Of a DNA stretch of 64,000 bases, positions 10,246-61,875 are shown in pieces. The stretch's first letter is position 1. Each line of letters begins with the position of its first letter. The position numbers and the translations under genes were made by a program. The notes below the pieces were generated by a model. The model was not told the origin of the DNA and searched no databases. It worked only from the letters and a program-made list of their open reading frames with translations. Source of the DNA: Antedon mediterranea (Eukaryota > Echinodermata > Crinoidea > Comatulida > Antedonidae); the NCBI RefSeq assembly GCF_964355755.1, contig NC_092676.1, positions 19,016,288-19,080,287 of the forward strand. Direction: 5' to 3'.

Positions 10246-13200
10246 TCATGGGTTTTCTTCGTCTTGCCTCACAGTAGATTCTAGCTGGCACGTACCCGTA
10301 ACCTTGTTTATCATTCACACCTAAAAAGCAAAAGAACAGTTAGTAACTTGGCAAGCATACAATATTGTACAGTGAAAACACATAACATTAATAACAGCAG
10401 CTCTTGAACTGTAGTATCATATTATCAAACCTAACCATCTTTTGTTTTAATTCGTCCTTAATAATAACAACCCTAACTGAAAAAATAGTTACATAGCTAC
10501 CCTACAGCGTGGTTCCCACTACAACGCAACGCAACAACGTATTGACGCAAAGTGATGATTGCGTAATCAGAATGCCGACGACGCAACAGTGCTGCAAACA
10601 TCGCTTGATTTCACGCAGGCGGGGGCAAACAATATTATTGGAAGGGCATTTTCGTACGTTGTGTAGATTGCGTTACGCTGCGTCGCTAGTGGGAACCACG
10701 CTTACGCGAACATTGCAGTGAAAACACATTGGTAAAATACCATCAATAACCGTTGTAAAATAATACTAACGTTTGATTGAAGTATATTTTCCTTTTCTTT
10801 GCCATTATCATTCTCAGAACAGCATTTCTTGTCTCCACAGTCGTCATCTTTGCATCCTATTGCACAAGTTTTGTTGGCCTCATCCGTTGAACTTGAATAA
10901 CCCTTTTAAAAATAGAAAAAAGAAGAAAATAGAAGTAGTACGAATAGGCCTATTAGAACATAGTACGGATACAAGAACATAAAACAAAATATTACGAATA
11001 CAAGAACATAGTGCGAATAAAAGAAAGTAGTACGAATACAAGAACATAGTGCGAATAAAAGAAAATAGTACGAATACAAGAACATAGTGCGAATAAAAGA
11101 AAATAGTGCGAATAAAAGAAAATAGTACGAATACAAGAACATAGTACGGATAAAAGAAAATAGTACGAATACAATAAATTTTAAATGATGTATTTCATTT
11201 GTATTTTAACCAAATTAAACTCGATTTTTGTATTTTTATGTGAATTTGTAACTTTGAACAAACTAAAATAATTTCAAACCATGTACTATATTTTACCAAA
11301 TTAAATGAATGAAAGTGAACATAAATGGAAGTACTGTAATTATAATAGGCCCTGCTACTGTACCTTAACTATAAATTCCGGTTGGATAGTATACGAATGT
11401 ATTCCATTTTGATGAAATATTCGACGCAGTATTTCTGCTATTCGCATGTATTCCTTCACATTATCGTCGAGTGATAAGTGCACGGACGCCATGAGGACGT
11501 CCCCTGATAGCTGCCACACATGAAACTCGTGCAGATTTTCGGTTGGAATCTACGAAATTGAATTAGAAATAGAGATATCAACATTTTTCTACTGTAGTTA
11601 CTGCAGTAATTACATGTTGTTTTCTTTTTAACTTATTTATGCAATATCTAATGTTCACTGTGAATGCCTCATAAACGTTGACATTGAACAAACTAAAAGT
11701 CAGCATTACTGTAATGTAATAGACAGGAAATATAAATATGATTTAATATAAATAATGTTCAGGTTGATAGTATTAATATAATTATGATATATGTGTTAAC
11801 AATGTAAATAATATTAAAGAGGATACAAAAGCAAAATATTACAAAGGAAGAAAAGGTAGAAGATGTATAAAAAAGCATGACATTGAATTAATAAAGGTGG
11901 TGGTTTAAAAAAAAAGTATACGCCCTTACAGTAAAATCACTTACTACTGTACTGTAACAAATACAATTTAGTAGGCCTAATAACCATCAGTCATTATTAT
12001 TGACAAAATTGGTCAGATGTCCTACTTTGACATAATTATTATAATTATGTCATAAGACAAACATCTGGTCAGCTCCCTGACGCAAAACGAAGGAGTCAGT
12101 GGCTATAGTATCATAATCAAAAGTTATTTTATGGAGTATAAAATACACGCCATTAAAAGTTATGATGCCATTTATCTACTACCACTCCATATAAAGCTGT
12201 CTAAATACACACTATCAAATTAGTTTGACAAAAACGGGTATGATGTGCCCAAATATAAAAGTGATATGACGTCATCGTGTCCATATATGGGCACATCACA
12301 TAAAGTTTGATAGTGTGGACAGAACTTTAGCAAGAACTGCCTTGATTGGTGCCTACCTCTTGTTCTATCCTGTTTCGTAACTCTTCAAAGTTAACACTTA
12401 CAGGGATCGATAAAAGCAATATCAAGCTAGCTTCTTTCACTAAGTAACAAAAATAACTACCAGTAAATCAAACCAGTGATGCAAATTAGCATGTACATAA
12501 AACACTTATTTTGTTCTTATTAGTTTGATAGAATTTTACTTACGTAGAGGATAGCATGTAAAACAAATAATAAAAACAACGACAATGCTAATACAAGGGT
12601 CGATGTAGACTGTCCAGGGAGCGTCGATAAAATGGATGGACAGAGCACTGGCAATGACGACAACTGATGCAAGGGCATCGCCCATAATATGAAGGAATAC
12701 ACCCTTCATATTCATCTGTTCATTAGAAGCTGAAAAGATACCAAGATATCACGTATTTGTCGTCGTCGCTTCGTCGTAGTTCAGTAGTGTGTGTCGGGTT
12801 GGGGATAGCGAGCTTTTGTTTCGGGACTGTCGGCAGACGTATGAGGAGACGGTAATTTAAAGATTGGTTCCCAGTAGGACGCAAGACGCAAAGATGTAAC
12901 AGCAACACAAGGATCAGACGAGACGGTAATTTAAAGCTTGGTTCCCACTACTACGCATGACGCAAAGACGTAATAGCAACACGAGGATCGGAGGAAACGG
13001 GAATTTAAAGCTAGATATCCACATATGAGACGTTTCTTGTCCACCTCAGCAATCGAGTCCTCTATTATCACAGTCAGCATGGTGGTCACATCAACAATCA
13101 TCATCAACATCATCATCATCAACATCATCATCATCAACATCGTCATCATCATCGTCGATCATCATCATCACCGTCATCATCAACACCATCATCACCATCA

Positions 13201-16200
13201 TCATCATCATCAACATCGTCATCATCATCATCATCATCATCATCATTACCATCATCACCATCATCATCATCACCACAATCACCATGACCCTCCATCATTA
13301 ATCTGCATTTGTGACATGGTGATCCATGATCCATTCATAAAATTCACTTACTAGTAATGGGTAAATTTTCATTCGTTATGAGATGAGACTTCTCCGATGG
13401 GTGTTGCTTAATATCAATGTCCCTATTACTGTGACTATGTCCAGACGCATGGCTATCTCCATGTCCAGACCCATGGCTGTGTCCATGTCCAGACCCATGA
13501 CTATGTCCATGTCCTGTGAAAGAATGTAAATTATCAATTGCCAGACCAAATATCAGTTGTCTTGCTTAAATATTGTAAACTTAATCAAAATAATACTTTT
13601 TATACTGTGATCTACTCTTTGTCGGAATAAATGAAAATATGGTGTTTTTCATTGAACTTAGACCAACTCGGACAGCGTCGTACTGCAAAGCCCAACGATC
13701 GAAACGTCTTGACTCATCGGTGCTGTCTGAGAAACGACACGAGTCGTCTTGCGATAGCGTCGGGCGTAGTTTTTAGGTCGTCACGAGAATTGAACTTTAC
13801 ATTTTCTCCAGATGAGACGACACGTCGGGCCAAGTCACACGACGCTACCTCGAGTTGGTCTTTAAGTGTGAGTCTTGAAGTTGGTACAATGAGTAGCAAA
13901 ATCCCATTATTATTCTATTCAGTATAATTCCAGAATGAAAAAAAAACTAACTTGGGAACACTATTTATTTAAGGTCCCCTTTGAGGAAACACTTAAATCC
14001 CAAAGAATGGTATCCCCCTTTTAAAAAAGATTTATTCATATTATACCGTACCGTGACCATTAAACATAAATAGTCCAATTATATTGATTAGCAGCCCTAC
14101 GGATCCGACACATGCTACCAGCACCGGATCGCTAACTTCTTCAACGTTAAAAATTCTCTGCAACGCTTCGATCAGAATATTGAAACACAATCCAAGAAGA
14201 AAGACGGCATTGACAAGTGCACCTAACACTTCAGACCTCACCCAACCAAACGTATTTTTATCTGTTTTTTTCCTTGATGACATCTAAACGTAATAAACAT
14301 TGACATGAGATTAATGATTATGACGTTTGCTACACACATAAATGTCCTGTTTCGAAGGGAGCTGCTTTGTTAAATAATAATAACTCGTCTAATGAGTCGA
14401 ACGACGCCGTCTTCCGTTCCCTGAATCGGAACAAGTATGAATCTGCTTTAAGATAGGCATAAGGCCTACATTCACGGTACGGAACGACTTTATTTTTCCT
14501 GACGTGTTTTATTTTTCCGCAGACTACCAGACCTCAAATTTCACTCGGAAACCCGTTAACAGTTACTGTAGGCCCCTAATAATATATTCATAATCCATAT
14601 TGATAAGATTTGCATGTAATATAAAATAAGGCTATTCTTTCCTGGTGTTTCAACAAGAGTATTGATAGTATTACATTATGTTCAGTTTACCTTTATTGCC
14701 ACAAACGCTACCACCAGCGCCACAACATCCGAAAGCATGTGGAAAGAGTCAGCAATGAGAGCTATAGAACTTGTATAATATCCTACTGTAATCTCAATGG
14801 TAAAACTAGATTTGAACTCGTCACTACGGACGAGTTAGGTTATCCGCATCGCAAAACCCACGCGCATGACACCTAAGTTAGAATATTGCGCGCAGAAAAA
14901 CGATTATGCCATTGAAAAAATGTTAGTGAGCCCTCTATTGTGTGTCGCGTCTAAGTGTGTACGGTATACACTATATACTGTATACGTACTACATAAATAG
15001 GTGAAAATAAGTGACCAAAGTTATTGACGCATTTGAACATGATGACGTCATCAAAATTTTAAAAATGGTGAATCATGCGAAAGATAATTGATTGATCTAG
15101 ACAATATAAAAAAATTGAGTGAAATGGAATATGGATAAGTGGAGATGCGCTCTGTTAAATTTGACGAGCAAAGACGAAAGAGAAAAAAATCCTATATTTT
15201 ATATTCGGGTGGCCATACGATGATGTCACAATGTCCGGTTAGCCATATCAATGCATGATTAAAGAAAAACAACTCATCTACTTCCAGAATATGTAATTTT
15301 AAAAAAGTTCACCACGTAGTTTAGAATTTATGACTGTTTAAAAAAAGGTCTAATTTTGACGATTTTTTGAAGTTTTTCATCAAAAACACGCGCAAATTAT
15401 CCAATTCTACGTGCTTGTGTGACGTGATTTTAAGTCGAAATTGATTGAAAATTCATAAATTTACTAGAAAAGGCTGAAAAAACAAAAATCAAGCAAAAAA
15501 AAGATGTTTTTGCGCTACGTGCGCACGCGCGCGTAAAAAAATTGCGCACGTGTGGGAATTTTTGAAATGCTCAAAATGACATGAAACGCATAGAAAGTTG
15601 ATTAGAAATTGATTTTTCGCATTTTGAAATTTCAAACGCGCGTGCGCGCGTAACTTTTTGTGAAACATGCCATTTTTAATCCATAGAAAGTTTGCGCATG
15701 ATCTCACTTAAATTTTCACAAAGTTTCAATACAAAACAACTTTTAGTTTTTATTCTATGATCAATCATTGAAATTCATGAAATCGCGCGTAACTTACGCT
15801 GCGCAACTCCAAAATCGTCCAAAAGCTTGGCTGCACATCTACAGCTATAGGTCAATCTTATGACAAAGTTATACAATCTTATGTTGGCCACAAGATAGAG
15901 ATGTGCTGCGAACAAAATTCGGGGAAAGAAAGAAGAATAACATAGAAAAAAAAAAAAAAAAAACTAGATTTGAACTCGTCACTACGGACGAGTTAGGTTA
16001 TCCGCAGCGCAAAAGCCACGTGCACGTCATACGTTAGAATATTGCGCGCAGAAAAACGATTATTCCATTGAAAAAATGTTAGTGCGCTGATCATTTTACG
16101 TCACGTCTAAGTATATACGGTATACACTATATACTGTATACGTACTACATACAGTGCAGAATAGGTGAATATAAGTGACCAAAGTTATTGACGCTTTTGG

Positions 16201-17289
16201 ACATGATGACGTCATCACAATTTTAAAAACGGTATATCATGCGAAAGATAATGGATTGACCTAGACAAAATAAAAAAATTGAGTGAAATGGAATACGGAT
16301 AAGTGGAGATGCGCTCTATTAAATTTGACGAGCTATGACGAAAGAGAAAAAAATCCTGTATTTTATATTCGGGTGGCCATACGATGACGTCACAATGTCC
16401 TGTTAGCCATATCAATGCATGATTCGAGAAAGGTAACTCATCTACTTCCAGAATATGTATTTAAAAATAAGTTCACCACGTAGTTTAGAATTTATGACTG
16501 TTTAAAAAAAGGTCTAAATTTGACGATTTTTTGAAGTTTTTCATCAAAATCACGCGCAAATTATCCAATTCTACGTGCTCGTGTGACGTGATTTTAAGTC
16601 GAAATTGATTGAAAATTTATAAATTTACTAGAAAAGGCTGAAAAAACAAAAATCAAGCAAAAAAAAAATGTTTTTGCGCTACGTGCGCACGCGCGCGTAA
16701 AAAAATTGCACACGCGTGGGAATTTTTGAAATGCTCAAAATGACATGAAACGCGTAGAAAGTTGATTAGAAATTGATTTTTCGCAATTTGAAATTTTAAA
16801 CGCGCGTGCGCGCGTAACTTTCTGTGAAACATGCCATTTTTAATCCATAGAAAGTTTGCGCATAATATGACTTAAATTTTCACAAGGTTTCAATACAAAA
16901 TGACTTTTAGTTTTTATTCTATGATCAATCATTGAAATTCATGAAATTGCGCGTAACTTACGCTGCGCAACTCCAAAATCGTCCAAAAGCTTGGCTGCAC
17001 ATCTACAGCTATAGGTCAACCTTATGACAAAGTTATACAATCTTATGTTGGCCACAAGATAGAGATGTGCTGCGAACAAAATTCGGGGAAAGAAAGAAGA
17101 ATAACATAGAAAAAAAAAAAAAAAAAAAAAAAAGATCCTGACAATAACAAGAGGTTATCCGCCAAGTGCGGATAACCAAAAAAAAAAAAAGATCCTGACA
17201 ATAACAAGGGGTTATCCGCCAAGTGCGGATAACCAATAAATGAAACACAACGTCATCATACACAAGATTCGGCATATTTTTCCATCCAT
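10246..17289 (-). CDS. SLC30A1: ZnT1-like zinc transporter (SLC30/CDF family)
   Basis: A cation-diffusion-facilitator transporter that exports zinc across membranes. Exons (minus, 5' to 3'): 17289-17234, 14805-14691, 14283-14052, 13513-13352, 12729-12544, 12439-12357, 11549-11364, 10902-10771 and a tentative last exon 10302-10246. They total 1209 nt, giving 402 residues with every phase consistent. Visible motifs: MDGKICRILCMMTLCFIY (TM1), DSFHMLSD (TM2, with zinc-site H41 and D45), KNTFGWVRSEVLGALVNAVF, a His-rich loop of HGHSHGSGHG type (about 135-155), NMKGVFLHIMGDAL (TM5, with H202 and D206), HEFHVWQLSGD, NGIHSYTIQPEF, and a Cys-rich tail (CAIGC, CGDKKCC). Histidine in both HxxxD sites favours ZnT1 over the ZnT10 type, which has Asn in TM2. 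Exon 1 and exon 2 are separated by a repetitive element. The last exon is weakly supported: without it, exon 8 reads on to another stop about 70 nt further. Confidence 0.9.
10505..10706. mobile_element. MITE family B variant with different interior
   Basis: Ends GCGTGGTTCCCACTAC and CTAGTGGGAACCACGC are good inverted repeats. The centre lacks the CCAATCACAAGCG boxes and instead carries unrelated DNA of about 130 bp. Confidence 0.7.
10935..11172. repeat. Minisatellite in ZnT intron
   Basis: Imperfect tandem copies built from AAGAACATAGTgCGAATA and AAGAAAATAGTACGAATAC, alternating at roughly 18-20 bp. It lies in the intron before ZnT exon 8. Open frames across it on the minus strand are repeat artefacts. 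Confidence 0.8.
12191..12330. mobile_element. MITE family A copy
   Basis: Facing TACACACTATCAAATTAG and AAAGTTTGATAGTGTGGACA ends with the palindromic GTGCCCAAATATAA / CCATATATGGGCACATCACA core. It ends about 27 bp before ZnT exon 6. Confidence 0.8.
12866..13016. mobile_element. Two tandem left ends of MITE family B
   Basis: TTAAAGATTGGTTCCCAGTA at about 12857 and TTAAAGCTTGGTTCCCACTA at about 12932 are each followed by ACGCAaGACGCAAAGAcGTAA and GACGGTAATTTAAAG-like DNA. They form a direct repeat of about 77 bp, and no right ends are present. Confidence 0.6.
13090..13290. repeat. CAT/CAC trinucleotide array in ZnT intron
   Basis: About 200 bp of near-pure CATCAT, CAACAT, CGTCAT and CACCAT triplets. 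All long reading frames across it (poly-His, poly-Met or poly-Asp) follow from the repeat and are not genes. Confidence 0.9.
14806..17236 (-). mobile_element. Composite repeat acting as candidate element-derived intron
   Basis: The whole intron between ZnT exons 1 and 2 is repetitive. On the plus strand it has: a unit of about 1.15 kb (14806-about 15940); a poly(A) run; a second, highly similar copy of the unit (from CTAGATTTGAACTCG at about 15963); poly(A) again; then two copies (about 17135-17180 and 17191-17234) of a segment starting GATCCTGACAATAACAAG and ending in a perfect 10-bp stem hairpin (GGTTATCCGC, loop CAAGT, GCGGATAACC). Each long unit starts with another perfect hairpin (AACTCGTC, loop ACTACG, GACGAGTT). 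Read on the minus strand, the element begins GGTTATCC and ends AAATCTAG, so GT and AG lie at its very ends. Flanking DNA is AAAA on one side and AATAAA on the other. Confidence 0.8.
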
Positions 17290-20954: not shown

Positions 20955-21851
20955 TCATTGCTTTTCTGCACGCAGGCGAAGCGCGTACATTTTCTCATAA
21001 TACGGCATAGATGCGTCAACACATACTTTTACATCTTCTGGTAGATCGGCTCGATCTGCTGCAGGAGAAGATTTGTAAAAATTCTGACTTGCAAAAGCGT
21101 CAGCAAAATAACCACATAACTGGTTGCCTTGCATAAAAATTTCAGAAAACTTCCAATTCTTCACCACACCATCTCCCGCATTCCAACTCAACAGTTCGTC
21201 TTTATACTGAATACCTGTGTGTTTGCAAAACTGTTTTAAGATAAACTCAGGGTTTTCTAAAAGATCATCGGAATCTATGATCATTGGGTTAGGCTCGATT
21301 CCAGTTTTTACAAGATGCTCGTAGAGTTGGACACTTTCCCCGAAAAAATAATTTTCTGGAAGCATATTATTTCCTTTGCTTTCCAACGAAAATTCAGTAG
21401 AATGTACCTTTCCCAATTTGTCCAATACTTTTTTCCAAGATGTAAACACTTTTATAGGATTTCGAATCAAGAATGCATGACGGTAGCCTTCTGGCAACAT
21501 ATGTAGCTTCCATGCGATACCGTATGCCATATCTTTGACAAATACAACTTTCTTGCCTTGATATTCGGCCTCCAGAAGATTCTCTTTTGTAAACTTGTAT
21601 GTCGCCTTGTTTGTATCCCAACCAGCGTCAAATCCCAAGTCAACCTTAGTTGTTTTAGCTATAATTTTTTCTTCGTTTTCTGCGAAACTTTCTAATGGCT
21701 GCTTCATCTCTGGTCCAAAGATGTACGCGGACACGTATGGTTCATTTATGATTTGCACGTCATCAAGGTTACTCATGCATTTTTCAAATGCAGTTGACAC
21801 CGTACGAGGAATGCACCAAAGAATAACACGAACTTGCTTGTTATCAGCCAT
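20955..21851 (-). CDS. P-loop sulfotransferase-like protein
   Basis: A 298-residue protein of the cytosolic sulfotransferase-like P-loop family, of the kind often named branched-chain-aminotransferase-like in databases. Near the N-terminus, IPRTVSTAFEKCM fits the PAPS 5'-phosphosulfate loop (PRTxST). At about 140, FLIRNPIKVFTSW fits the 3'-phosphate-binding RNP/RDP segment. DSDDLLENPEFILKQFCKHTG and NWK further on are also typical. I start it at MADNKQ (21851) because TATGTTACAG just upstream on the minus strand looks like a splice acceptor for a 5' UTR intron; an upstream in-frame Met would add 32 residues. There is no signal peptide from that start, so it is probably cytosolic. The substrate is unknown. 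A decayed partial copy lies upstream at 22453-22545. Confidence 0.85.
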   Translation of the reverse strand: MADNKQVRVILWCIPRTVSTAFEKCMSNLDDVQIINEPYVSAYIFGPEMKQPLESFAENEEKIIAKTTKVDLGFDAGWDTNKATYKFTKENLLEAEYQGKKVVFVKDMAYGIAWKLHMLPEGYRHAFLIRNPIKVFTSWKKVLDKLGKVHSTEFSLESKGNNMLPENYFFGESVQLYEHLVKTGIEPNPMIIDSDDLLENPEFILKQFCKHTGIQYKDELLSWNAGDGVVKNWKFSEIFMQGNQLCGYFADAFASQNFYKSSPAADRADLPEDVKVCVDASMPYYEKMYALRLRAEKQ

Positions 21852-22284
21852 GTTGTATCTGTAACATACAATGAAACACAGTAGTACTAGCAGGCCTAAT
21901 CGTTTGGTGGTGTCGAAATCCTTGCGTAAGAAAAATAATAATATCATAGTAAATAAAACAATTATATTACCTGTATTCTGTGCTCAATTATTAAGTATCT
22001 TGAATAAAAGTTAGAAATTAGAATAGGGCTATAGGCCTACAACTTCCCGGCTACTCACCTATATTTTTTATTGGGATATTGGCTTAATACCAGATAAAAG
22101 TAAGTAAATCAACAAAGTCAAACACACACACACACACACCCGAATGAACTTAAGACTTAATAGATACGCAATCAGCCAATTAGGTATACCAATATCCAAT
22201 GTGATGATAAAATAACAGATAACATCCATGATTTTTTTAATGATAATTTTTATTTGAATCTTCACTTTTTAAACTACACGATAA

Positions 22285-23582: not shown

Positions 23583-26500
23583 ATGGCAGTTGCAACAGCA
23601 TTAAAATCAGAAACAAAAGTTGGTGAGGTAAGAACAACATTTACGTCATACTGTTCGTCATCAGTGTTACTTTTTGTGTCTTCCACCACCTGTGGAAGTT
23701 TATATATTGCCAACCTACCATACCAAATAATAACTCTTTAAATGAATAAAAATATTAATTCACATTTAAAAAGCTATCAAGAAATTAAGTGCTGGAAATA
23801 GTTGTAACTATTCCAAGGTTGAAAACATGATTAAACTAGTTATTTTTACATGCAAAAACATACAAAAAACAATACATTTTTAAAATATGTAAAAACAGTA
23901 AAAAGTAACTGAGTAGGCCCACTCACTACCCCTATAACTTTAAAAAGAATGTTACATTATTATAATTCATTAGTATAGTATGACCTAAAGTGGATCTTAT
24001 GACATTATCTTATTAATCAATTTTACCATATCTATTTTTAGTGGTCAACAATATTCCCATGCAAGCAGGTTAATGAAACGCAGTCAGCTTTGTTTGTCAA
24101 GAAGCTGTTAGCAGTAGCTGTTTCTAACATTACTTACCTGAGAGCAATATTTCCAGAAAGCGCTTACGGAGATCGACGCTTGGAAGGTAAGAATGTCTGA
24201 ATGAATGCAGTCAGAAAAAAAAATTGCAAATGGCTTCCTACTTCTAAAGCTCGGTCTACACTATCAAACTTTATGTGACAAAAACATTTTTTTTCAAACT
24301 AGTGTACTGTAGACAGAGCTTTAGAGTTTTATCAGATAATCGATATTGTTTTTACAACTCTTGTAACATGACTGATTTTGCCCTAACTGAATGCAGAATG
24401 TTTCACTAAGCAAATGTATTCAAAAGCATCCGCTTAATTATACACAGGTGTATTCATATTTCCATAGTTCAAATACGCCAAATTCTAGTCCCTTGAGTTT
24501 TTTGCTGCAGTAAAAATAGTAACTTTCTACACAACAAATCCAGGCTCATGAGCAGTCATGTGAATCAAACAGCTCAGCAGATGAAAATCACAGCTATTTA
24601 GTCTTGGAACATGAAAATGGTAGCATGATTTTTTCTCTGCATTAGATTTACACGACTAAATTCTTCTAGTGGAAAACAGGCTTTATGTTTCAATTACAGG
24701 TTTTAAATCATAACTGAATCTTCTGCATTAACCAAATTCATTTGTATTTTAAAATCTGCAATTTTTGCTGATATTTTGACAACATTTTTGAATAAAGCAT
24801 TTCTTGATAGAATTATTATCTTTGTTTTATAAGTACTACACATAAAAGAGAAAAATTCTATAGATATTCACTATTTTACTGTACAGTATTTATAGAATTA
24901 AATAGTTAGAAGTCTTTATGTATTTCAATGAGGTATATTAAATATAGAGTGAGTTTGTTTGATCAAATTAGCATGTTGTAAATAAATAATTATGTTCTAT
25001 TGCAGATATCAGCTTGAAAGTACTACGGGATGAAAGTTCATGCCCTGGAGCTTGCCAGGTCATTAAATGGGTCAAAGGTTGCTTTGATGCCCTGGACAAG
25101 AAATATGTAAGTTTTCTTTAATAGAACTTCAGTCTAAGTCATTAATGCAATTACAGTCCCAAATAGATTTTTACTCTTAAGTCTGTCTACACTTTATGCA
25201 ACAAAACATGTGTTGTGCCCATATTATGGACATGATGATGTCATATTACTACCATATTTGGGCATATTACTACCATATTCGGGCATATTACTACCATATT
25301 TGGGCATATTACTACCATATTTGGGCATATTACTACCATATTTGGGCATATTACTACCATATTTGGGCACATCACCCTTTTTTGTTGAAATATTTTGAAA
25401 ATGTACAAAGAGTATTATAAATGCTCAGTATTACTATTATTATTTACAATATGAATGAACATTTCCTTTATTTTAAGCTCATTGGTTCGCAAGTAATTTG
25501 ACCAATCACAAGCGATGGATTATTTGAATTGTTGCTTGTCATTGGTCAACTCGGGTCACTTGTGATTACGTCCTAGTGGGAACCAAGCTTTAGGTGATTC
25601 CAGCAATTTGTTTTATTCCCGATTCCAGCAATTTGTTTTATTCCCATGATTTTAATCACATTTTCGCATTATATTAATTTATATTATATTTTCTTTCTCT
25701 TAGCTGAAAACAATAGTCATTGGGGTAAGTAAACAAATCATTTTGTTACCAACAAAGACTTCATTACAAGAACAAACCAATTGAAAAATCTTTAAAATAC
25801 ATTCGAAGGAATTTTATATTCAGATTTGTTGAACAGTATAATATATTTATAAAATATAATAATAATAAATAATAATATGATTACCAATTTTGTGTTTTAT
25901 TTTTTTCCCCCAGATTTATGTTGATCCAAAGCATCCTGAAGTAAGTGAATTTTAATGTGAAAATAAAATATGATTTATACATATATCTTATGTTTACATT
26001 TTAGCAATGATAGATGCATTAAATTCAAGAAAATCCCCCAGTATTTTTTTTGTAATGACTTTATGTGGTAACGGGAACTAGAGTGGGCGTTGAGGGCAGG
26101 TGGTTGAAACACGAGGTTGAGAAAGAAAGTAGACAATAAAGTGTTGATTCATAAGACTGTGTTTTCTTGCTCTTATTTAAATTGTGTGGATACTACAATT
26201 GGCGACGAGGATGAACTATAATATAGTGAGTAAACCACACCCATTTCTGGAATCTCCAGGCACGCCCGTTGTTCAGTGGAAAACATGGAAAATAATATTT
26301 CAAAATTACTTGTCGGCTGCTGAATTGGAGGGAGCGTCGGCGGGCCGCCGCAAAGCTATCCTGATAGCGTCGTTAGGTACTGAAGCTCAACGGATTTATT
26401 ACACTGTTTTGAACAGTAGGGCTACTTCGGCTGCCATACCAGGTGCACAGCAGGCAGCAGATGATGATAATGATGAATTTACAAGAGCATTACAATTACT

Positions 26501-29500
26501 TGGTGACTATTTTGAACCTAAAATTAACGTGGTAGCGGAGAGGTACAAGTTTCGTAGCCGATCTCATGAACCAGGTGAGAACGTTCAAACGTTTGTTTTA
26601 GCTCTTAAACACTTAGCAAGTACGTGCCAGTTTGCTGGGTTGCATGACGACATGATCCGTGATCAGATTGTAGAAAAAACAAACTCTACAAGAGTACGTG
26701 AAAGATTATTAATGGAGAAAGACTTGACCTTGACCAAAGCTATTCAGATTGCAGAGAGGGTCGAAGCAGCTGAGAAGGAACGGAAAGCGATAGAGGGGAT
26801 AGCGGTAAAGATTCCCGATGAACTCAATGCAGTACCAATGCCAGTGTGTGCACAAACACAGGTGAACAAAAGGAGCTACCGTAACAATGGTCCTAATGGG
26901 GAAGGAAAAAGACGATGTTTTCGATGCGGGTCACAACGCCACCAGGCAAATTCTGATGAATGTCCAGCAAGGAGTCGAGTATGCCGTCAGTGTTCCAGAG
27001 TAGGCCACTTTCAGCGCATGTGTCGGGAAGTTGGTAATGCAAATGTTATGCAGTGTTTCGATGGAGAAGCTAATGGTGAGTGCATGAGGAAGACAAATGT
27101 TTCAGTGACTATTCGTGTGAATAATGTGAACCTACCTTTTGTTGTTGATACAGCGTCAGATGTATCCCTGTTAAGTATGAAACTGTTTCAAAGACATTTT
27201 GTGCAGGAAGCACTGTACCCAAGTGGAGTTAATTTGTTAACTTATACAAGACAAACAATTAAAATTGTTGGGGAATTTAATGCATTGGTTAAGTACAAGT
27301 CAAAAATGGCTACAGCAAAGTTTTTAGTAGTAGACCAAGGGTGTTCTATTTTGGGAAAAGATTTAATTCAAAGGCTAGCGTTAACAATTGATGGGTCAAC
27401 TATGTCATGTTTGACAATGAAAGTTGAGAACTGTGAGGGTGAGGATACCAATATGGGTTGGGTAAAAAATAAGTTTCCCCATCTATTTGGTTCTGATCTG
27501 GGACACATTAAAGGTTTTGAGCATACAGTTAAGGTTAATTCCCAAGTGCCACCTGTGCAGCAAGCACTGAGAAGACTGCCTCTGGCAGTTCGGGACAAAG
27601 TTACTAATGAGTTGAATAGGTTGGAGAAGGAAGGAGTTATTGAAAGGGTTAAGGGGGCAACCGATTGGGTGTCTCCATTAGTAGTTGTTTGGAAGAAAAA
27701 TGGTGGAATACGACTTTGTGTGGATTTGAGAAAAGTAAATGAATCCATAGTAATTGAAAAACACCCTTTACCAAAAATTGATGAATTATTAGATACCATG
27801 TCAGGTGCTAAATTGTTTAGCAAATTAGATTTGAAGTCTGCATATCACCAGTTAAATTTACATGAAAATAGTAGAGACCTTACAACGTTTGTATCCCACA
27901 AGGGTTTGTATAGATTTAAAAAGGTGTGCTTTGGGTTGGCTTCTGCTCCTACCGCATTTCAAAAATTAATGTCAATAATACTGCAAGGAATTCCCAATAT
28001 TGGGTACTTTATTGATGATATTTTTGTTTTTGGCAAGACTAAATCAGACCATGATACAGCTCTAAGGGCAGTACTCAATAGGCTTCAAGAGTATGGAATG
28101 CGCCTCAATGACAAGTGTGAGTTTGGAGTGACTAGCGTTAAAATTTTGGGCCATGTATTAGATTCAGAGGGGCTTCACCCAAACCCAGAATTAGTTAAAG
28201 CAATAAAATGCGCTCCGGTTCCAGAAAATAAAGAGCAGGTGAAATCCTTTCTGGGCTTAGCCGGATACTATTCCAAATTTATAAAGAATTATGCAACCCT
28301 TGTACAGCCACTAAGGGATATTCAATTAGGGGAGGAATTTGACTGGAGTAAAAGGGCCAGTGGGGCATTTGCATTGATTAAGCAGAGCATTGTGACATGT
28401 CCAGCCCTTGCCCTGTTTGACCCAGAAAGGGAAGTAATTGTGACGACAGATGGGTCGGGGTATGGAATAGGGGCGGTTCTCACCCAGCTAATCGAAGGGA
28501 AGGAAGTAACCATAGCTTTCACATCAAGAAAGTTAACATGTGCAGAAAGAAAATATTCCACAGGCGAACGTGAAGCCTTAGCATGTGTGTACTCAATTGA
28601 GAAATTTCATACGTACCTATGGGGTAGACATTTTATACTACGAACCGATCACAAAGCACTGACAACACTGTTAGCATCCAGTGGGAATGGCCACAGACCT
28701 ATGCGTATAGCTAGATGGGGTGCAAGGCTGCTAAATTATAACTACACCGTTGAATACAAACCAGGCTCTGATAATGTTGTGGCAGATGGATTATCTCGTC
28801 TGCCATTGGAATATGAAGGGGGGTCCTCGGAACAGAACAATGACATTGCTGCGGTATGTTTAGTAGAGATAGAAGAAGAGTGTTGTATAACCCTAGGACA
28901 ATTTAAGGCTGAGGTAGATAAAGATGAAACCCAACAGAAAGTGATTAAATACATAGAGTCTGGTTGGCCAGAAAGTAAAGATATGTTGGATAGCAACATA
29001 CTGCCATATTATAAAGTACGGGAGGAATTAATAGTATTAGAAAATAGAGTTTACAGAGGTGATAGGGTGGTGGTACCAGACTCCCTAACAGTTCATTTAA
29101 TTTACAAGGCACATGAGGCTCACCAAGGGATAATGAGAACTAAGAAAAGATTAAGGCAATTGTATTGGTGGCCAAGAATGGATACCCAGGTAGAAAATAT
29201 AATTAAACATTGCATTGTGTGTATAGAACATGATAAAACGATAAAGATTTCAAAAGCTCCAATGACACCCATAGAATACCCATCAATGCCCTGGGAAAAG
29301 TTGGGACTAGATATAGTGGGTCCCTGCGACTTACTACCAAGCCAGTGCAGATTTGCCATTACTTTAATTGATTACCATTCTAAGTGGCCAGAGGTATGTT
29401 TTGTACCAAAAGTTACCACACAAGTCGTAATAGATTTTCTGTCGAGGGTATTTGCTCGGGAGGGCTACCCATTAGAATTGATAACTGATCATGGAGTTCA

Positions 29501-32500
29501 GTTTGTTAGTTACGAAATGAAACAATTTCTGAAACAAAGGGATATTAGGCATTTGCATTCTGCTATTTATCACCCACAGAGTAATGGGGCAGTAGAAAGA
29601 TTTAACAAAGTGTTAAAACAAACAATACAAACTGCATCATTAGAAGGGAAAGAAGTTAAACAATATGTACAGTCATTTTTATTTGTATATAGAAACACTC
29701 CACACTCAACAACAGAGGTGGAACCAGCACTGCTGTTACATGGACGAAAATTAAGAAACCAGTTAGATATTAAAGGATTGACACCGCCATCAGATGTGGT
29801 GGTTGATAAAACTAAACTTAAAGAACTAGTAAGGGTTAAACAAGAGAAACAAAAGAAATATTTTGATAATCATAACAGTGTAAAATTACCTGTTGTACAG
29901 GAAGGAATGCATGTAAAGGTAAAGAAAACTGGATATGTACATAAGGGTAGTAGTTCATTTATGGGGCCATTTCGAGTAGTTAAGAAGGTGGGAAATGCGA
30001 CTTTTGTGTTGAGTAATAGAAAAACATATAATATTGAAAGGCTGGCTATTGTAAGCCCTGATTGTAAGAAATGGGCGACGCCATTGAATAAGGTATTGAT
30101 AGATGATTTTGAAAATGAACAACCAGAACATGTAAATGTAGATAGATTCATACAAAGAGATGTAGACCAAGTTCCGTATAGAACTAGGTCAGGTAGAGTA
30201 GTAAGGAATCCTAGTAGGTACGTTGAAGAATGTAATTTGTTACAAGGGGGAGATTGTGGTAACGGGAACTAGAGTGGGCGTTGAGGGCAGGTGGTTGAAA
30301 CACGAGGTTGAGAAAGAAAGTAGACAATAAAGTGTTGATTCATAAGACTGTGTTTTCTTGCTCTTATTTAAATTGTGTGGATACTACACTTTAAGATCTG
30401 AGAAGTTGTTGGTCATTCCTGAGGATCTAGATAAATTTCCTAACCTCATCCTCAACCATGTTGGGCCAAGTTATGATTATGATATGTTTTACTCACTGTT
30501 CATTCTACTCATCCTAATTCTATTTCAGACTGTAATCGAATCTTACACATTTAAATTTAGTTACAATGAACATGGACCAAACATGAACATATTCAGGCAA
30601 GTAACTGTATCCTAAAATCTATTCGCAACAACAAATGTGAAAAGAAATGTTGAAATATCCAAATGTGTGTTGCTTGAAAAAGCTAGTATTGTCTGATCTC
30701 ATACAGTTAGGCCTGCTTGGCTACTGTACTCTTAATAATCACTGTCAGCAGTCCCTTTTAAAAACTTCAGCTTCAAGTCAATTCTCAGTTTTGTAACATG
30801 ACATATGTATTGTTTTGTAGCTAGGTCTGCTTAGAATTAACTTCCTCAAACAAAATGTTACTCACACGTGTTACTGTCAATGTCTTTGTAATAATAATAA
30901 TAATGGCTTATATACAGTGCCTCCTAATGCAAATGTTTCTGAGCACTTTATCCAATAAAGACTGAAGGTAATTCAGGTATACCATTATTATTGCTCTGTT
31001 CTAATGTACTGTAAACTCCCAAAAGAGAGCTCGTCAAAAACAGAACTCACATGATCTTGACAACAGCTGACTCTGAGTAAACTAAGAGGACCAAATTAGT
31101 TTCTAAAAAGTAGTTCTTAAAGCTCTGTCTACACTATCAAACTTTATGTGACAAAAAAAGCCGATATATGGACACGATGTCATATAGCCATATTTGGCAT
31201 ATCACTACCACACTTTTTTGTCACTAGTTTGATAGTGTACACAGAGCTTTACAAAATTCTGATTCTGAGAAACCAATGTTGCAATATCCAAATGTGTATT
31301 GCTTGAAAAAGCTTGTAGTGTCTAATCTCATGAAGTTAGGCCTGCTTGGCCAACCGTACTCTTACATAATCACTGTTTCTTAATGTTGCGTAAGACATTT
31401 AATTTTAACCAACATACAAGTAAGTCTTTTCTGTGTTTATTCAGGAATAACAAGAAGTTAACAGGAGCTGCAACTGAGTTGGAGACTAAGAAAGCCACCA
31501 TTAGACTCCTGAGGACTATCATTGTGTTGACGCAATCCCTCTCATCTCTACCTGAAGATGTTATGATGACTATGAAACTATTTTATTATGATGAGGGTAA
31601 GATTTAATATTGCCTAAGGGCCCGATCATACTTTAGAATTTACATTTAAAATGATCGCGTGTGGCTTCCCCTGGGTAAAAAAAGAAAGAAAACAGCTGTT
31701 CCAAAAACCTACCTCAGTTGCTGGATTTTTCAATACACCTAAAACCACTAGCCGATTGACCACAAGATAAGGAGCAATTTGACCTTACGTTGGTAAAAAG
31801 ATGAATAAAATACGACCTTGCTGGGTAAATTTTGTTGAGTTTACATATGTAAACTTTTGTCATCCGAACTGGTCCACTGACTAGTCCCAAGAATAATTAC
31901 ATGTGTAATTGAGTTTAAGAGCCTAAGAGTGTTGGGTAAATCTTGTTGAGTCCGAACGGTTCTTCTGATTAGTCTCAAGTTTCAAACTTTTATCTTTAAA
32001 CTGGTATTATATTCATTTTTTATTTCTTTATTGTTAAATTAATTTATTAACTTTATTTATATTTATTCTTTTCTAAATTTAAATTTGTAAAGGCAATCCC
32101 GTCACAAGATTCTTTTTGGGATTTACCTTCGTACATTTTCTTGTATTATCAGTCGCCATTTTGTTTTTGTTACTATTTGTCTTCTGGACGTGAATAAATG
32201 TGAATTGAATTGAATATGAAGAAAAAAAGAGTAATTTAGGTGACACATGTAATTAAGTTTACAGTCCGAACACAACCTTAATCTGAATTTGATATCATAC
32301 ATATATCATTATTATACACTTTGTTACTATACTTGAATGAGTGATAATAATATCGTTTAGTTACCCCATGTGAATACCAGCCTCCAGGTTTTCAAGCAGG
32401 AGATGCTGATACCTTTAAGTTTGAAGAAGAACCAATGAATATCTGTGTTGGGGACGTCTCAACGGTAATTTGCTTTTTATTTTTATTTTACTAATGGGAC

Positions 32501-35500: not shown

Positions 35501-38500
35501 CAAATATTAATAATTAAAACACATAAAATAAACAATATATAAAATCAGATGATGCAATAGAAATGATGAATAGTAAAAATAACCTAAGAACAATATTTAA
35601 ATAGTAAATAATGAATGGTCAAGATGACATGTGTTTCCTTTGAATAATATAGCCAATGGTCAATTCAGAGAATGGTCAATTTATCTATCTATGTGAACAC
35701 ATTGCAACAGCCTATGTCTAGTCTTAAAATTTTTGGGGCAGAATGCCATAGACAATTTGATACTTCTCAATGTATTATTATATGTTCGTTTTGTATATCG
35801 CTCATAATATTTTAAAATCATAATTTAAATTGACTGTTGTTCTAAGTGAATAAAGGTGTTTGTGGGGTGGGGTGTATGATAAGGTAATTTTGTTGTCAAT
35901 TTCTATACGCCTACTACGTTATTGTCAAGTGCAGTCATCTTTATAGATATTGGACCTGAGGCTGTCCCATGGGTTTCAGAACACACTTACAGATTTGAAA
36001 AAAAAATGAAATGGTTGGTTTTGCATTTTCTGTGGTTAAAAAAGACTGAAAATGAAGGAAATATATATCATAAAACTGATTTTGACACATCAACAAAAAA
36101 CATTATAACTAACTCTATATCTTTGGAATGACTAATGATATACTATTATTATGAATTTGTTTGTGTATTTTGACCATAGGCCTACTTTACCTAGTAAAAC
36201 ACCTCATTGGACCTTTCAGAGGACACAAATTTGTTCTTAAAATGAATGAGGGACTATACATTTTTTAACATCATAGCCAACCCTATTTAGGAGACACCTC
36301 TAAAGGGACACTTTGTAGAGCCCAAAGGTGTCCCTCTCCCCTATAAGGGCTATACTATTTACCATTTATCAAATAAAATGTTAAACCTATTGTACTTGCT
36401 TTTAGCGCTATACAATTGTATATTTCTCAATGTTCACATTAATGAATACCATAGTAGTATTTGAATTGAAAGCAACAGGAAGCTATATGTAACAGGATTG
36501 CTCTCACTGGGATATCAGAATGTTACATTTTAATGAAATTAAGCATAGAAAGTTGACAAAATGTCACAAAATGTTGGACTTTTAGGTGGCTTGTCTTGTT
36601 ATATTAAATTTACAGATTAATATGACATTGGGTTGTTTTAAAAAAGAAGAAATAAATTGTGATATGTCTGCTAATGTACCTATTGAACATTTGAATGGTT
36701 ATAATGTCATTTAAATTTAATTCAATTAGGCTGCTTTAATGTAGTTTAATCTGTATCATTGTGTAGGTGTTTCATACGTTCTTTTGCGTGTAGTATAGTT
36801 TTATTATACTCGACAAAACGCCAGTATTTTACTTATTGTTGGTTTTGATTTTTTAAGTTATACTTTTTTTTTATCTCATGTTGGCAAAAGACTGTGCATA
36901 TAGTCCATGGGATTTAGCTAAAAAATGACCCTTTTCTCACACAAATTGCAAGAAAAGGTTTTTTTGATGAAATGTGTTCTTTAGACCCTACTGAACATAT
37001 CTATCAACGTTAGGACATTTTTCGACAACGGGAAGTAGCCTAATTTGCATAATTAAAAATGGCCGCCATTTTTGATAACGTACTCTGTATCTTGAAAACC
37101 GCTAGTCACAGATACTTAATTATGGTGTCAAAATCGTTAGAATATATGTTTTTATATTTACTTTATTGAAAAAGTTTGTCCAAAAATGAATGGAAGTGCT
37201 ATTTCTAACATTATTGACCTTTGACCTTGAATTCTCATATCTCAGCAACCACTAATCGGAGATATACAAATTAGGGCTTAAATTGTTCAGAAACTACACA
37301 TTTATATCCAGTCTAATGGCATGTTTTTGCAAAAAATGGCGGATTCTAACATTATTGACCTTTGACCTTGATTTATCATATCTTAGCAACCACTAATCTG
37401 AGAGACACACAATATGGCTCAAACTGTTCAAAAACTACATATTTATATTTAGTCTAATGGCATGTTTTTGCAAAAAATGGCCGATTCTAACATTATTGAC
37501 CTTTGAACTTTGCACTACATAAAATCGCATAACTTTGAAAATATTGTACATATGAAATTATTTTTAGTGTCAAATTATTCAGAACATACATGTTTCTATA
37601 GAGTCCAATGACACATTATGTCCAATAATGGCCTATTGTATGGTTATTAACATTTGAACTATATTTGAAAAGCCTTTAAACCCGGAATCTTCTTCATGTG
37701 GACATCCATTAGAACATGTGATTTGGCACTCTAAAATGTAAGAGTTGCAATGTTGACTTATTATGTTTAGTTTAAAGTAGGCCATGGTACACTAAATTTA
37801 TAAGCATAAACTATTGCATTCATCCATAAACTGCCTACAAGTTTACACGTTTGTTTATTTTATTTCTTATCGTTTTCGCAGCTGAAGCTGAATTACAATA
37901 TATTTATATTAAAAGCATTAAAATTGATGGTTAAAAAATGGTAAAAATTAAACCACATAGAAACATGGTACATACACAATACATTCACGTAAAAAAAGTA
38001 CAAAAACAAGTAATAAAAGGTTAAAAACTATACACGACTAGTAGTCGTACTGTATATGGTTATTGAAATAAATAAATAAATTCCATAAGAAACTGAGGTT
38101 TTTACTGTATACGGCGAAAATATTGCAAGTGGTGGTCAGCCTAATTATGAGTCTCGATAGCCAATTAATTAAACTAAACTAAATATGTTGCATTAATATC
38201 GATCTTTTAAAATTCCAGTTGTCAACAATGCGTCTATTAGTAGAAAATGCCTTCTTAATAAGACTATGTTTCAACCTAAAAGAATGCCCTCAAGAGTGAT
38301 GCTATCCTTAGCAAAATATAAACTAAATAATCTTTAGAAATTTGTTTTTTTAATATGCCATTTAATGGCAATTTAATTTGATCAAAATATAAATTACTAA
38401 CTTGAAAAAAACGTTAATAAACCTGCAAAATGGCATGGCCTATTTAAAGTATGTACAATGTAACAATATATCATAAAAAAATCATTGGACTCTATAGAAA

Positions 38501-41500
38501 CATGTATGTTCTGAATAATTTGAAACTAAAAATAATTTCATATATACAATATTTTCAAAGTTATGCGATTTTATGTAGTGCAAAGTTCAAAGGTCAATAA
38601 TGTTAGAATCGGCAATTTTTTGCAAAAACATGCCATTAGACTAAATATAAATGTGTAGTTTCTAAACAGTTTGAGCCATATTGTGTGTCTCTCAGATTAG
38701 TGGTTGCTAAGATATGATAAATCAAGGTCAAAGGTCAATAATGTTAGAATCCGCCATTTTTTGCAAAAACATGCCATTAGACTGGATATAAATGTGTAGT
38801 TTCTGAACAATTTAAGCCCTAATTTGTATATCTCCGATTAGTGGTTGCTAAGATATGATAAATCAAGGTCAAAGGTCAATAATGTTAGAATCCGCCATTT
38901 TTTGCAAAAACATGCCATTAGACTGGATATAAATGTGTAGTTTCTGAACAATTTAAGCCCTAATTTGTATATCTCCGATTAGTGGTTGCTGAGATATGAT
39001 AAATCAAGGTCAAAGGTCAATAATGTTAGAAATAGCACTTCCATTCATTTTTGGACAAACTTTGTCATTAAAGTGAATATAAAAACATATGTTCTAATGA
39101 TTTTGACACCATAATTAAGTATCTGTGACTAGCGGTTTCCAAGATACAGAGTACGTTATTAAAAATGGCGGCCATTTTTAATTATGCAAATTAGGCTACT
39201 TCCTGTTGTCGAAAAATGTCCTAACGTTGATAAATGTGTTCAGTGGGGTCTAAAGAACACATTTCATCAAAAAAACCTTTTCTTGCAATTTGTGTGAGTT
39301 AAAAGTCTAAATCCCATGGACTAATATTGAAAAGAAAATTAAAATTTTGAGGGCAGTAAAAAAGCTTATCAAAATTGTTGAATTATCTGTACTTTCAATA
39401 TGGATTGAAATATTATATTTAAATATTATATTTTTTTATTTCAACTTTGAAGGCTATTTATTTAATGTAGTGTTCACCATTTCATTGTTACTTGGCAAAA
39501 CAACATTTTGCCAAGTTTGGTACTGATTTGTTTGTTTGTTAGTATGATAGATAGATACAATTTTTAAGTTATCATTATGAATTTTTTGGTGTAAATAGGT
39601 GTAGAGTTACAGAACAATCATGCCTATTGAAATTCAAGAAAATCGGTTCATCAGATATAATAACTTCACAAAATAAAAAAAATGTGTATTCTTTTAAGAT
39701 TGGCCGAAATATAAAAAATCGCTCAATTTCATGTAGTTTTCACCAGTCCATTGTTTTTGTTTATTTAGGATGATGGGCTAATGATTCAATGTGAATCATG
39801 TAAGTATTGGCAGCATGCTGTTTGCTTTGCTGTCATCAGTGAAGATCAGGCCCCTGAAAAGCACCTCTGCAATCTCTGTGTTGATGTATGTTATTTTTCT
39901 TTATAATTAAAAACAAAGTATTTATTTTTTGTACTCAAATACCAGCTCTAATTATTTTCATAAAGATTTAATTTTGTGGTATACCAACAAAGGGTAATCT
40001 GATCAAATCAAAAGAAAAAAAATGCTTTTTAATAAAAATGAAGTTAGAATGTATTGGAAAATTATTGAATACTGAACAGTATACACAATTTACAGATTAT
40101 TTTAATGAAATCTTGCATACATTTAGTGTTATAATATTTAAAGACTTTCACAAAATAATTTAAATTCAGTAGTACCTTGGGGACCCAGCCCATTAATAGG
40201 GGTTAGTCCTTGTGCATATATTTCCCCCACAAACATTTTATGGGAAGGTGTCCCCTTAACGGCAATGTCTCCTGGAACAGGATATCCGAAAATAGGGCTT
40301 CTTCTGTATCGAAAGAACAAAGTACACTATTCCCAAAGATTAGAGGATCGTCTCCCTGTGTGTTGATCTCATGGTAGGTGGGTCCATGGAGGGCCTAATT
40401 CGAATTTCCTTACTTTCCAGGTGAAGCTTGAGGACAAATATTAATACCTTTAACTAATCTATTTTAAATGTTGCATAATAAGTTGTTGTACCTATTTAGA
40501 CTAATGATCCAGAGAGCATGAAGCTCTGTGACTCATTCCTGATTGGTCTAAGTCCTGTATTGATCCAGTCAACATGCTTGTGGCGGAGGACACTGCTTTC
40601 GGTTTCGGAGATAAGCCGTATACACGCCCCTAATCTAGCAAAGAAACTGTGCGTTGAAATCACAGTTGCTCAAGGCTTGATAAACCGCCTTGAAAAAGAA
40701 GGATACTGCAAAACTACCGAGAAGGGTAAAAGGTTTGTAACAATCATATATCACTTAAAAAAAATTGTACTTTTCTCCAAATGTTGTTATTACTTTTCTA
40801 GAACTATTTATTTATTTATTTTTATTTATTTAGGTTTAAAAACACATACAAAACAGCAGCCATTGGCTGATAACGTTTGTTTACAATCAATATACATATA
40901 TAATTAAAAGTAAAAGAGGCACAATTACAAACAGCATAGAAAAATAACTATATATTATAAAACACAAAATACAATATTATTCGTTCATAAAATTGAGCAC
41001 GTCATTATTATTATTATTATTTAAGATTATTATTAATATATACATTATTAAAATTATTATAATAAAAGGTCGAAACGGCATCTAGAAAGTGAGAAATAAT
41101 CATGGAAATCAAACCTATATCAGTTAGCATTAATGAACTTAACAATCGTAGGTATGGCAGACCTTTGGTATCGTTCAGTTCCTATATGTTCCTGTACATT
41201 AATTAATGTTATATAACACCTAAATAAATGCCTGTCATTAGATTGGACAATTGTTGGTCATATGGCGTGCAGTAGTACATATTATATAACACCTATATAA
41301 ATTCCTGTCATTTGATTGGACGAATGTGGGTCACATGGCGTGCAATAGTACGCACTATTCAACGATCGTTAAATAGTACTTTTTGAAACATTTTTGTTTG
41401 TTATTTAGATGTTATATAAAACAAATAATGAATGTTTTGTATTCGTGTAATGGTACAAATAATGGCACTTGGTGAATGATGAAAGGTTATATCAACTCGG

Positions 41501-61177: not shown

Positions 61178-61875
61178 AGCCTACCGTATGTCAGAGTATT
61201 GGATTGATAGTAGATTCCTTACCGTATGTCAGAGTATTGGATTGATAGTAGATTCCCTACCGTATGTCAGAGTATTGGATTGATAGTAGATTCCCTACCG
61301 TATGTCAGAGTATTGGATTGATAGTAGATTCCCTACCGTATGTCAGAGTATTGGATTGATAGTAGATTCCCTACCGTATGTCAGAGTATTGGTTGATAGT
61401 AGATTCCCTAACGTATGTCAGGGTATTGGATTGATAGTAGATTCCCTACCGTATGTCAGAGTATTGGATTGATAGTAGATTCCCTACCGTATGTCAGAGT
61501 ATTGGATTGATAGTAGATTCCCTACCGTATTTCAGAGTATTGGTTGATAGTAGATTCCCTACCGTATGTCAGAGTATTGGTTGATAGTAGATTCCCTACC
61601 GTATGTCAGAGTATTGGATTGATAGTAGATTCCCTACCGTATGTCAGAGTATTGGATTGATAGTAGATTCCCTACCGTGTGTCAGAGTATTGGATTGATA
61701 GTAGATTCCCTAACGTATGTCAGAGTATTGGATTGATAGTAGATTCCCTAACGTATGTCAGAGTATTGGTTGATATTAGATTCCCTACCGTATGTCAGAG
61801 TATTGGTTGATAGTAGATTCCCTACCGTATGTCAGAGTATTGGATTGATAGTAGATTCCCTAACGTATGTCAGAT
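61178..61875. repeat. 38/36-bp minisatellite, about 18 copies
   Basis: The unit CCCTACCGTATGTCAGAGTA plus TTGGATTGATAGTAGATT (38 bp) is repeated. A 36-bp variant (TTGGTTGATAG, missing AT) occurs in about five copies. CTAACG for CTACCG also recurs, so variants have spread within the array. Confidence 0.92.

Follow-up and report, generated by a model that had tools for sequence, protein, structure and literature searches.

Probable disruption of an SLC30A1-like gene in the crinoid Antedon mediterranea by a dimeric nonautonomous Helentron in its first coding exon

The window analyzed here, a 64,000-nucleotide stretch of the Antedon mediterranea genome (contig NC_092676.1, positions 19,016,288 to 19,080,287 of assembly GCF_964355755.1), carries on its minus strand an SLC30A1-like (ZnT1-like) gene, within whose first coding exon a single transposon copy is found (positions 14806 to 17236 of the window, minus strand). 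In protein searches the gene matched P0001, an SLC30A1-like protein of A. mediterranea and its best database match, and P0002 from another crinoid, Anneissia japonica, and its homology to human SLC30A1 extends over the cation efflux domain (E value, 4.5e-41). From Met 41 on, the coding stretches in the window reproduce all 344 residues of P0001 letter for letter. Of the first coding exon as it was before the insertion, the 5' part, which aligns to P0002 and human SLC30A1, comprises 53 bp from the ATG at 17289 (17237 to 17289, minus strand; codons 1 to 17 and two bases of codon 18), and the 3' part (14691 to 14805, minus strand; FTIEITVGYY...VAIK) ends at a true donor, GTAAAC, at the codon where a paralog also has its donor. 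When the two parts, hereafter exon 1 and exon 2, are joined, they encode MDGKICRILCMMTLCFIY-FTIEITVGYY. The joined protein aligns to P0002 without a gap across the joint and to residues 10 to 137 of human SLC30A1 with a lone one-residue gap, located near MSSRK and not at the joint, so that the contiguity of both exons in ZnT1 order, as proposed in the initial annotation of this DNA, is confirmed. The downstream coding stretches, all on the minus strand and separated by six ordinary GT-AG introns, continue with the next SLC30A1-like exon (MSSRKKTDKNTFGW...FNGHG; 14052 to 14283), followed by exons with a His-rich loop (13352 to 13513) and with the sequence QMNMKGVFLH... (12544 to 12729), a further SLC30A1-like exon (12357 to 12439), an exon for the C-terminal domain (11364 to 11549), and the last stretch matching P0001, GYSSSTDEANKTC...ILQSNV (10768 to 10902), beyond which the P0001 stop codon was not found.

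On the sense strand, the insert reads GGTTATCC...AAATCTAG, and it can be described as a complete nonautonomous Helentron (HINE), TTGGTTATCC ... AAATCTAG, between a host A and a host T. The DNA between exons 1 and 2 had been described as one composite repeat throughout, and this is indeed what we find: a pair of hairpin units of 57 bp and a pair of 1.16-kb units, each of the large units ending with an inverted repeat, a stem-loop, and CTAG. The 5' terminus (17210 to 17236, minus strand, as are all parts of the element) consists of TT and a palindromic subterminal inverted repeat, GGTTATCCGC-ACTTG-GCGGATAACC (hairpin z score, -5.83). The two 57-bp repeats (17121 to 17234), each composed of the 5' hairpin, a short spacer, and a T-run, are 98% identical. 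Next come the inner 1.16-kb unit B (15964 to 17109), which has its own 3' inverted repeat, stem-loop, and terminal CTAG, and the 3'-terminal unit A (14806 to 15945), a member of a young subfamily; A and B are identical at 1092 of 1166 aligned positions (94%). Near the 3' end of the element lie the subterminal inverted repeat GCGGATAACC (14838 to 14847) and the stem-loop AACTCGTC-CGTAGT-GACGAGTT (14815 to 14836; z score, -3.10, with 2 of 200 shuffles equally stable). Successive units of family arrays meet at CTAG|TTGG. The TT ahead of GG is thus part of the element, whose end is therefore 17236 and not the position that follows from the earlier placement of the exon 1 border at 17234; the other end is 14806. 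Excision of exactly these positions rejoins the host A to the host T and restores the exon frame. The A-runs flanking the element had also been taken to fit a very short target duplication, which is ruled out, TT being element sequence and host A|T being rejoined exactly. A long or short interspersed nuclear element (LINE or SINE), another reading of the A-runs, is ruled out by the Helentron-type ends.

An apparently intact SLC30A1-like paralog, P0107, lies on the same contig as the window gene, and its residues 1 to 61 are encoded in one unbroken stretch, followed by a donor at the codon that matches the exon 2 donor of the window gene. Because codons 1 to 61 of the paralog lie in one exon, there was no old intron at the insertion codon; an ordinary intron at the same codon, which had been named as an observation that would speak against a newly born intron, was looked for in the paralog and not found. 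When the genome (18 contigs, 354 Mb) was searched with P0107, the matches listed included only weak ones, on contigs 1 and 11, and no nearly identical duplicate of the window gene.

The element belongs to an abundant family. Its 26-base 3' end has 907 genome-wide matches at no more than 2 mismatches, compared to 0 for the reversed control, which excludes chance; the individual positions listed in this search are those on contig 1. Eight insertions were read at both ends (the window copy, L015, L016, L019, L022, L027, L028, and L030), and the other copies end where the window copy ends, so that the mismatch of ends named in the initial annotation as a refuting observation was not seen. Although their flanks differ otherwise, all eight feature TT ahead of GG and a T behind CTAG; in this set, independent information comes solely from the TT, from the T behind CTAG, and from the positions at which similarity ends. 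The host site is A|T in six cases and T|T in the remaining two, and six of these copies consist of a single unit, 1,204 to 1,224 bp in length. Four further loci (L017, L020, L023, and L029) have a host 3' flank and a 5' end outside the retrieved stretch; T follows CTAG in 12 of 12 host-flanked 3' ends. Arrays and nested loci that are not cleanly bounded (L009 to L014) were left out, as were L018, L021, L024 to L026, and L031 to L046, in which a further unit or a related repeat directly follows the 3' end. Satellite-like head-to-tail arrays, with family 3' ends mostly every ~1.15 to 1.3 kb, were observed on contig 1 at 14.175 to 14.194 Mb and at 22.98 to 23.12 Mb. When the seven other both-end insertions, from a family with 907 3' ends, were put to a crude open-frame test, none was recognized as lying in coding sequence. 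In this test, L016 beat its shuffles (120 versus 90 amino acids) although it is read as an intronic copy; at this locus (C5:28298200-28305400), an antisense family copy lies ~20 to 25 nt upstream of the apparent acceptor of an exon that is sushi-like as judged by eye. A scan of viral contigs for the family 3' end yielded 0 matches.

The ends and anatomy of the insert, together with the unbroken exon of the paralog, establish it as a Helentron-type element in a coding exon, and its anatomy is that of a HINE, here a dimeric one. It has the subterminal inverted repeats of HINEs, with GGTTATCCGC 2 nt from the 5' end and GCGGATAACC 32 nt from the 3' end, the palindrome AACTCGTC/GACGAGTT 9 nt from the 3' end, terminal Ts, a T-rich target, and no clear target duplication. 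Among the HINE/DINE-1-like elements described in PMC4067079, the palindromic subterminal repeats with the 5' one located 2 nt from the end find a counterpart, as do the 3' stem-loop (at 9 nt from the end, compared to 8 to 35 nt in the mite families treated there), the terminal Ts, the T-rich target, the T-run after the 5' repeat, and the internal tandem repeats. The window element differs from the elements of that source in that it ends with CTAG, as canonical Helitrons do, its subterminal repeat is shorter (10 bp versus 12 to 15 bp in the mite families), the 3' subterminal repeat is closer to the end (32 nt versus 38 to 60 nt), the tandem unit is itself a nearly complete 1.16-kb element, and the copy resides in a coding exon. 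Cg_HINE of Crassostrea gigas, as presented in PMC7492417, has a similar left side (a subterminal repeat, a complementary repeat, and a simple repeat), central tandem units, a right side with subterminal repeat and palindrome, and satellite-like arrays, whereas the units of ~1.15 to 1.22 kb seen here keep their own 3' ends and their arrays resemble head-to-tail concatemers. With Helitron2, as described in PMC5148889, the element shares a 5'-terminal inverted repeat with a partner 20 to 40 bp inside the 3' end and hairpins at both ends, but Helitron2 elements start with TCAG or TGCCT and end with ATTTT or CTCCTGT, and the candidate autonomous partner found here has an endonuclease domain, a mark of Helentrons. 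A canonical Helitron1 would have a 5' TC, a 3' CTRR with a hairpin, insertion at A|T, and no inverted repeats; while the CTAG end, the hairpin, and the A|T sites fit, the 5' TTGG and the inverted repeats rule it out. The anatomy and the head-to-tail arrays suggest that the family transposes by a rolling-circle route.

A possible source of the transposition machinery is present in the same genome. Helitron_like_N has 87 genome matches, 39 of which lie within open frames of at least 2,800 amino acids. These 39 frames, one of which was scanned for domains, have similar lengths (2,826 to 3,181 amino acids), which suggests recently active autonomous Helentrons. At C1:11513307-11522636, a 3,109-amino-acid open frame matches OTU, Helitron_like_N, PIF1, and Exo_endo_phos in a domain scan that covered 2,378 residues. 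This frame runs antisense between family 3' ends at 11509089 and 11526753, and the 1.1 kb adjoining the former is 80 to 81% identical to the family unit and ends with CTAG|T. The frame and the shared 3' end may be parts of one element, which was read at its 3' end. Autonomous Helentrons of the kind described in PMC4067079 likewise encode OTU, Rep-like, PIF1, and endonuclease domains, and the DNA adjoining the frame shares the 3' end of the family; the antisense orientation of the frame relative to the 3' end is a difference, for which one Drosophila ananassae Helentron provides a precedent in that source.

In a tree of 32 units, unit A (private branch, 0.0092) belongs to a young subfamily that comprises nine units at seven loci, the window among them (fork support, 91/84), and unit B lies outside this subfamily. 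Since unit A clusters with units at six other loci rather than with B, the dimer predates the insertion and moved as a unit. The 6% difference between A and B was considered as a date of the insertion and ruled out, given this grouping and the uneven spread of the A/B differences (P = 0.003). Judged from the private branch of unit A, the insertion would be no older than about 1% divergence, and the private changes may predate it.

We interpret these observations as a gene-breaking insertion, in which a dimeric HINE, moved by the rolling-circle machinery of autonomous Helentrons, inserted without target duplication and broke the SLC30A1-like exon, and we assign this interpretation a probability of about 0.86. 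Autonomous Helentrons in the genome would have supplied the machinery, the HINE would have landed at an A|T site of the first coding exon, and the exon would have been broken, with probable loss of function, in this haplotype; the insertion is presumably young, perhaps heterozygous, and may be tolerated because of the apparently intact paralog. In support of disruption, the frame that opens at the true ATG enters the element and is closed by a stop after 25 codons, and reading from the element into exon 2 yields Met 41 as the first in-frame start, with loss of the first transmembrane segment and of His43 (human numbering), which we take to be a zinc ligand. Most likely, then, this copy of the gene is disrupted and the paralog is apparently intact, and the plain disrupting insertion that had been mentioned as an alternative to intron birth fits better than the introner; intron birth is unsupported. 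It might be argued that an ancestral intron at the insertion codon was merely filled or replaced by the element, but this is extremely improbable: we found no point in its favor, the exon abuts the element with neither a host base nor a host splice site remaining in between, excision of the element restores the frame exactly, and the paralog, intronless at that codon, rules out the replacement of an old intron. Only slightly less improbable is expression from within or downstream of the element of an N-terminally shortened protein that starts at Met 41. P0001 does begin with MLSDVVALVV in exon 2, and no in-frame Met separates this start from the final stop codon of the element; however, such a protein would be devoid of the first transmembrane segment and of the His of the His-x3-Asp motif, making transport unlikely, and a gene predictor could yield the same model from a broken gene.

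The remaining alternative to a broken gene is that splicing removes the element as a newly gained intron, with a Helentron acting as an introner, from TTG|GTTATC to AAATCTAG|T and with an extra Cys after Tyr18. While the core of the initial annotation, a mobile element with exact ends in a formerly single coding exon, holds, the intron status that it proposed is not supported, and we consider splicing of this element improbable; the same low probability applies to the broader idea that the family is preadapted to splicing and that the ZnT1-like copy is an echinoderm introner of Helentron origin. Of the GT and AG described at its very ends, the AG is placed as stated, but the GT lies only near the other end, where TTG precedes it; hence splicing would leave three element bases and not one, although the single added Cys and the open frame are as predicted. 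Since three bases are left by TTG|GT...AG|T, a sense-strand exonic insertion would be frame neutral and, with a host T as the next base, would create no stop at the joint. A number of points weigh against the gene-breaking insertion or limit the evidence for it. GT and AG are found in or at the family ends, so that the frame is kept with no stop; a branch-like CTAAC motif lies 29 nt before the AG; and all downstream coding stretches are open, as in a working spliced gene, although this is not surprising for a dead gene at ~1% divergence. The splice profile was derived from no more than 12 introns of the two paralogous genes, and the weakest true donor (1.8 bits) comes near that of the element (1.3 bits). 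P0001 and P0107 are one-member clusters, and the lack of a second protein might only reflect transcripts absent from the database. Moreover, the eight both-end insertions were chosen by an exact 5' hairpin and an exact 26-base 3' end, letters that are equal by construction, and the open-frame test chose a wrong-strand frame for the window copy. Exon 1 is also conserved, with 12 of 18 residues shared with Anneissia, which would suit a spliced gene. On the other side, the weakness of both splice sites, already remarked upon in the initial annotation, was borne out by scores below those of all 12 true sites. The element donor reaches 1.3 bits, compared to 1.8 to 9.5 bits for the 12 real donors (each left out in turn), and has a T at +3, where all 12 real donors have A or G; as 30% of the GTs in the window score at least as high, it does not stand out from GTs with no role in splicing. 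The element acceptor scores -16.0, compared to -10.9 to 12.5 for the 12 real acceptors, with a tract of 7 pyrimidines instead of 11 to 15, and 92% of the AGs in the window score at least as high. Two further AGs stand between the CTAAC motif and the end, of which the first adds seven in-frame residues and the second shifts the frame. Across exon 1, the element, and exon 2, no in-frame splice pair leading from the ATG into exon 2 had both sites at least as strong as the weakest true ones. Finally, the database model P0001 ignores exon 1, and no second protein of the window gene was present among the best 120 of 2,757 and the best 120 of 568 matches of two protein searches.

The introners described in PMC9860276 resemble the window element in being nonautonomous transposons in coding exons with candidate splice sites near their ends, and extra codons after introner splicing have a precedent there. 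They differ in length, with family median lengths of 30 to 654 nt versus 2.4 kb, and the window element has weak sites and no second exonic copy that we could see; the word "helitron" is absent from the main text of that source. Our literature search returned no recognized report of a Helentron-born introner in an echinoderm, and none for Antedon together with helitron, neither of which is proof that none is in print. The locus offers a natural case in which a Helentron insertion into a coding exon is resolved to the base and the paralog serves as an unbroken-exon control, the element coming from a family that seems recently active in the A. mediterranea genome. It also bears on the question of whether rolling-circle elements whose GT and AG have set places near the ends can undergo splicing. 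If this one does not, it represents an ordinary gene-breaking insertion and cautions that a repeat-filled gap with GT/AG ends is not by itself an introner.

Elsewhere in the window, several tandem repeats were observed: a perfect 27-bp array at 1 to 618, a 38-bp array (96% matches) at 61180 to 61874, and 141-bp repeats at 37203 to 37510 and 38583 to 39031, whose consensus units appear by eye to be mutual reverse complements. A 1,363-amino-acid open frame on the plus strand (26181 to 30272) matches reverse transcriptase, RNase H, and integrase, as in a retrotransposon polyprotein, presumably Ty3/Gypsy-like from its domain order, and a 342-amino-acid open frame on the minus strand (20955 to 21983) matches sulfotransferase.

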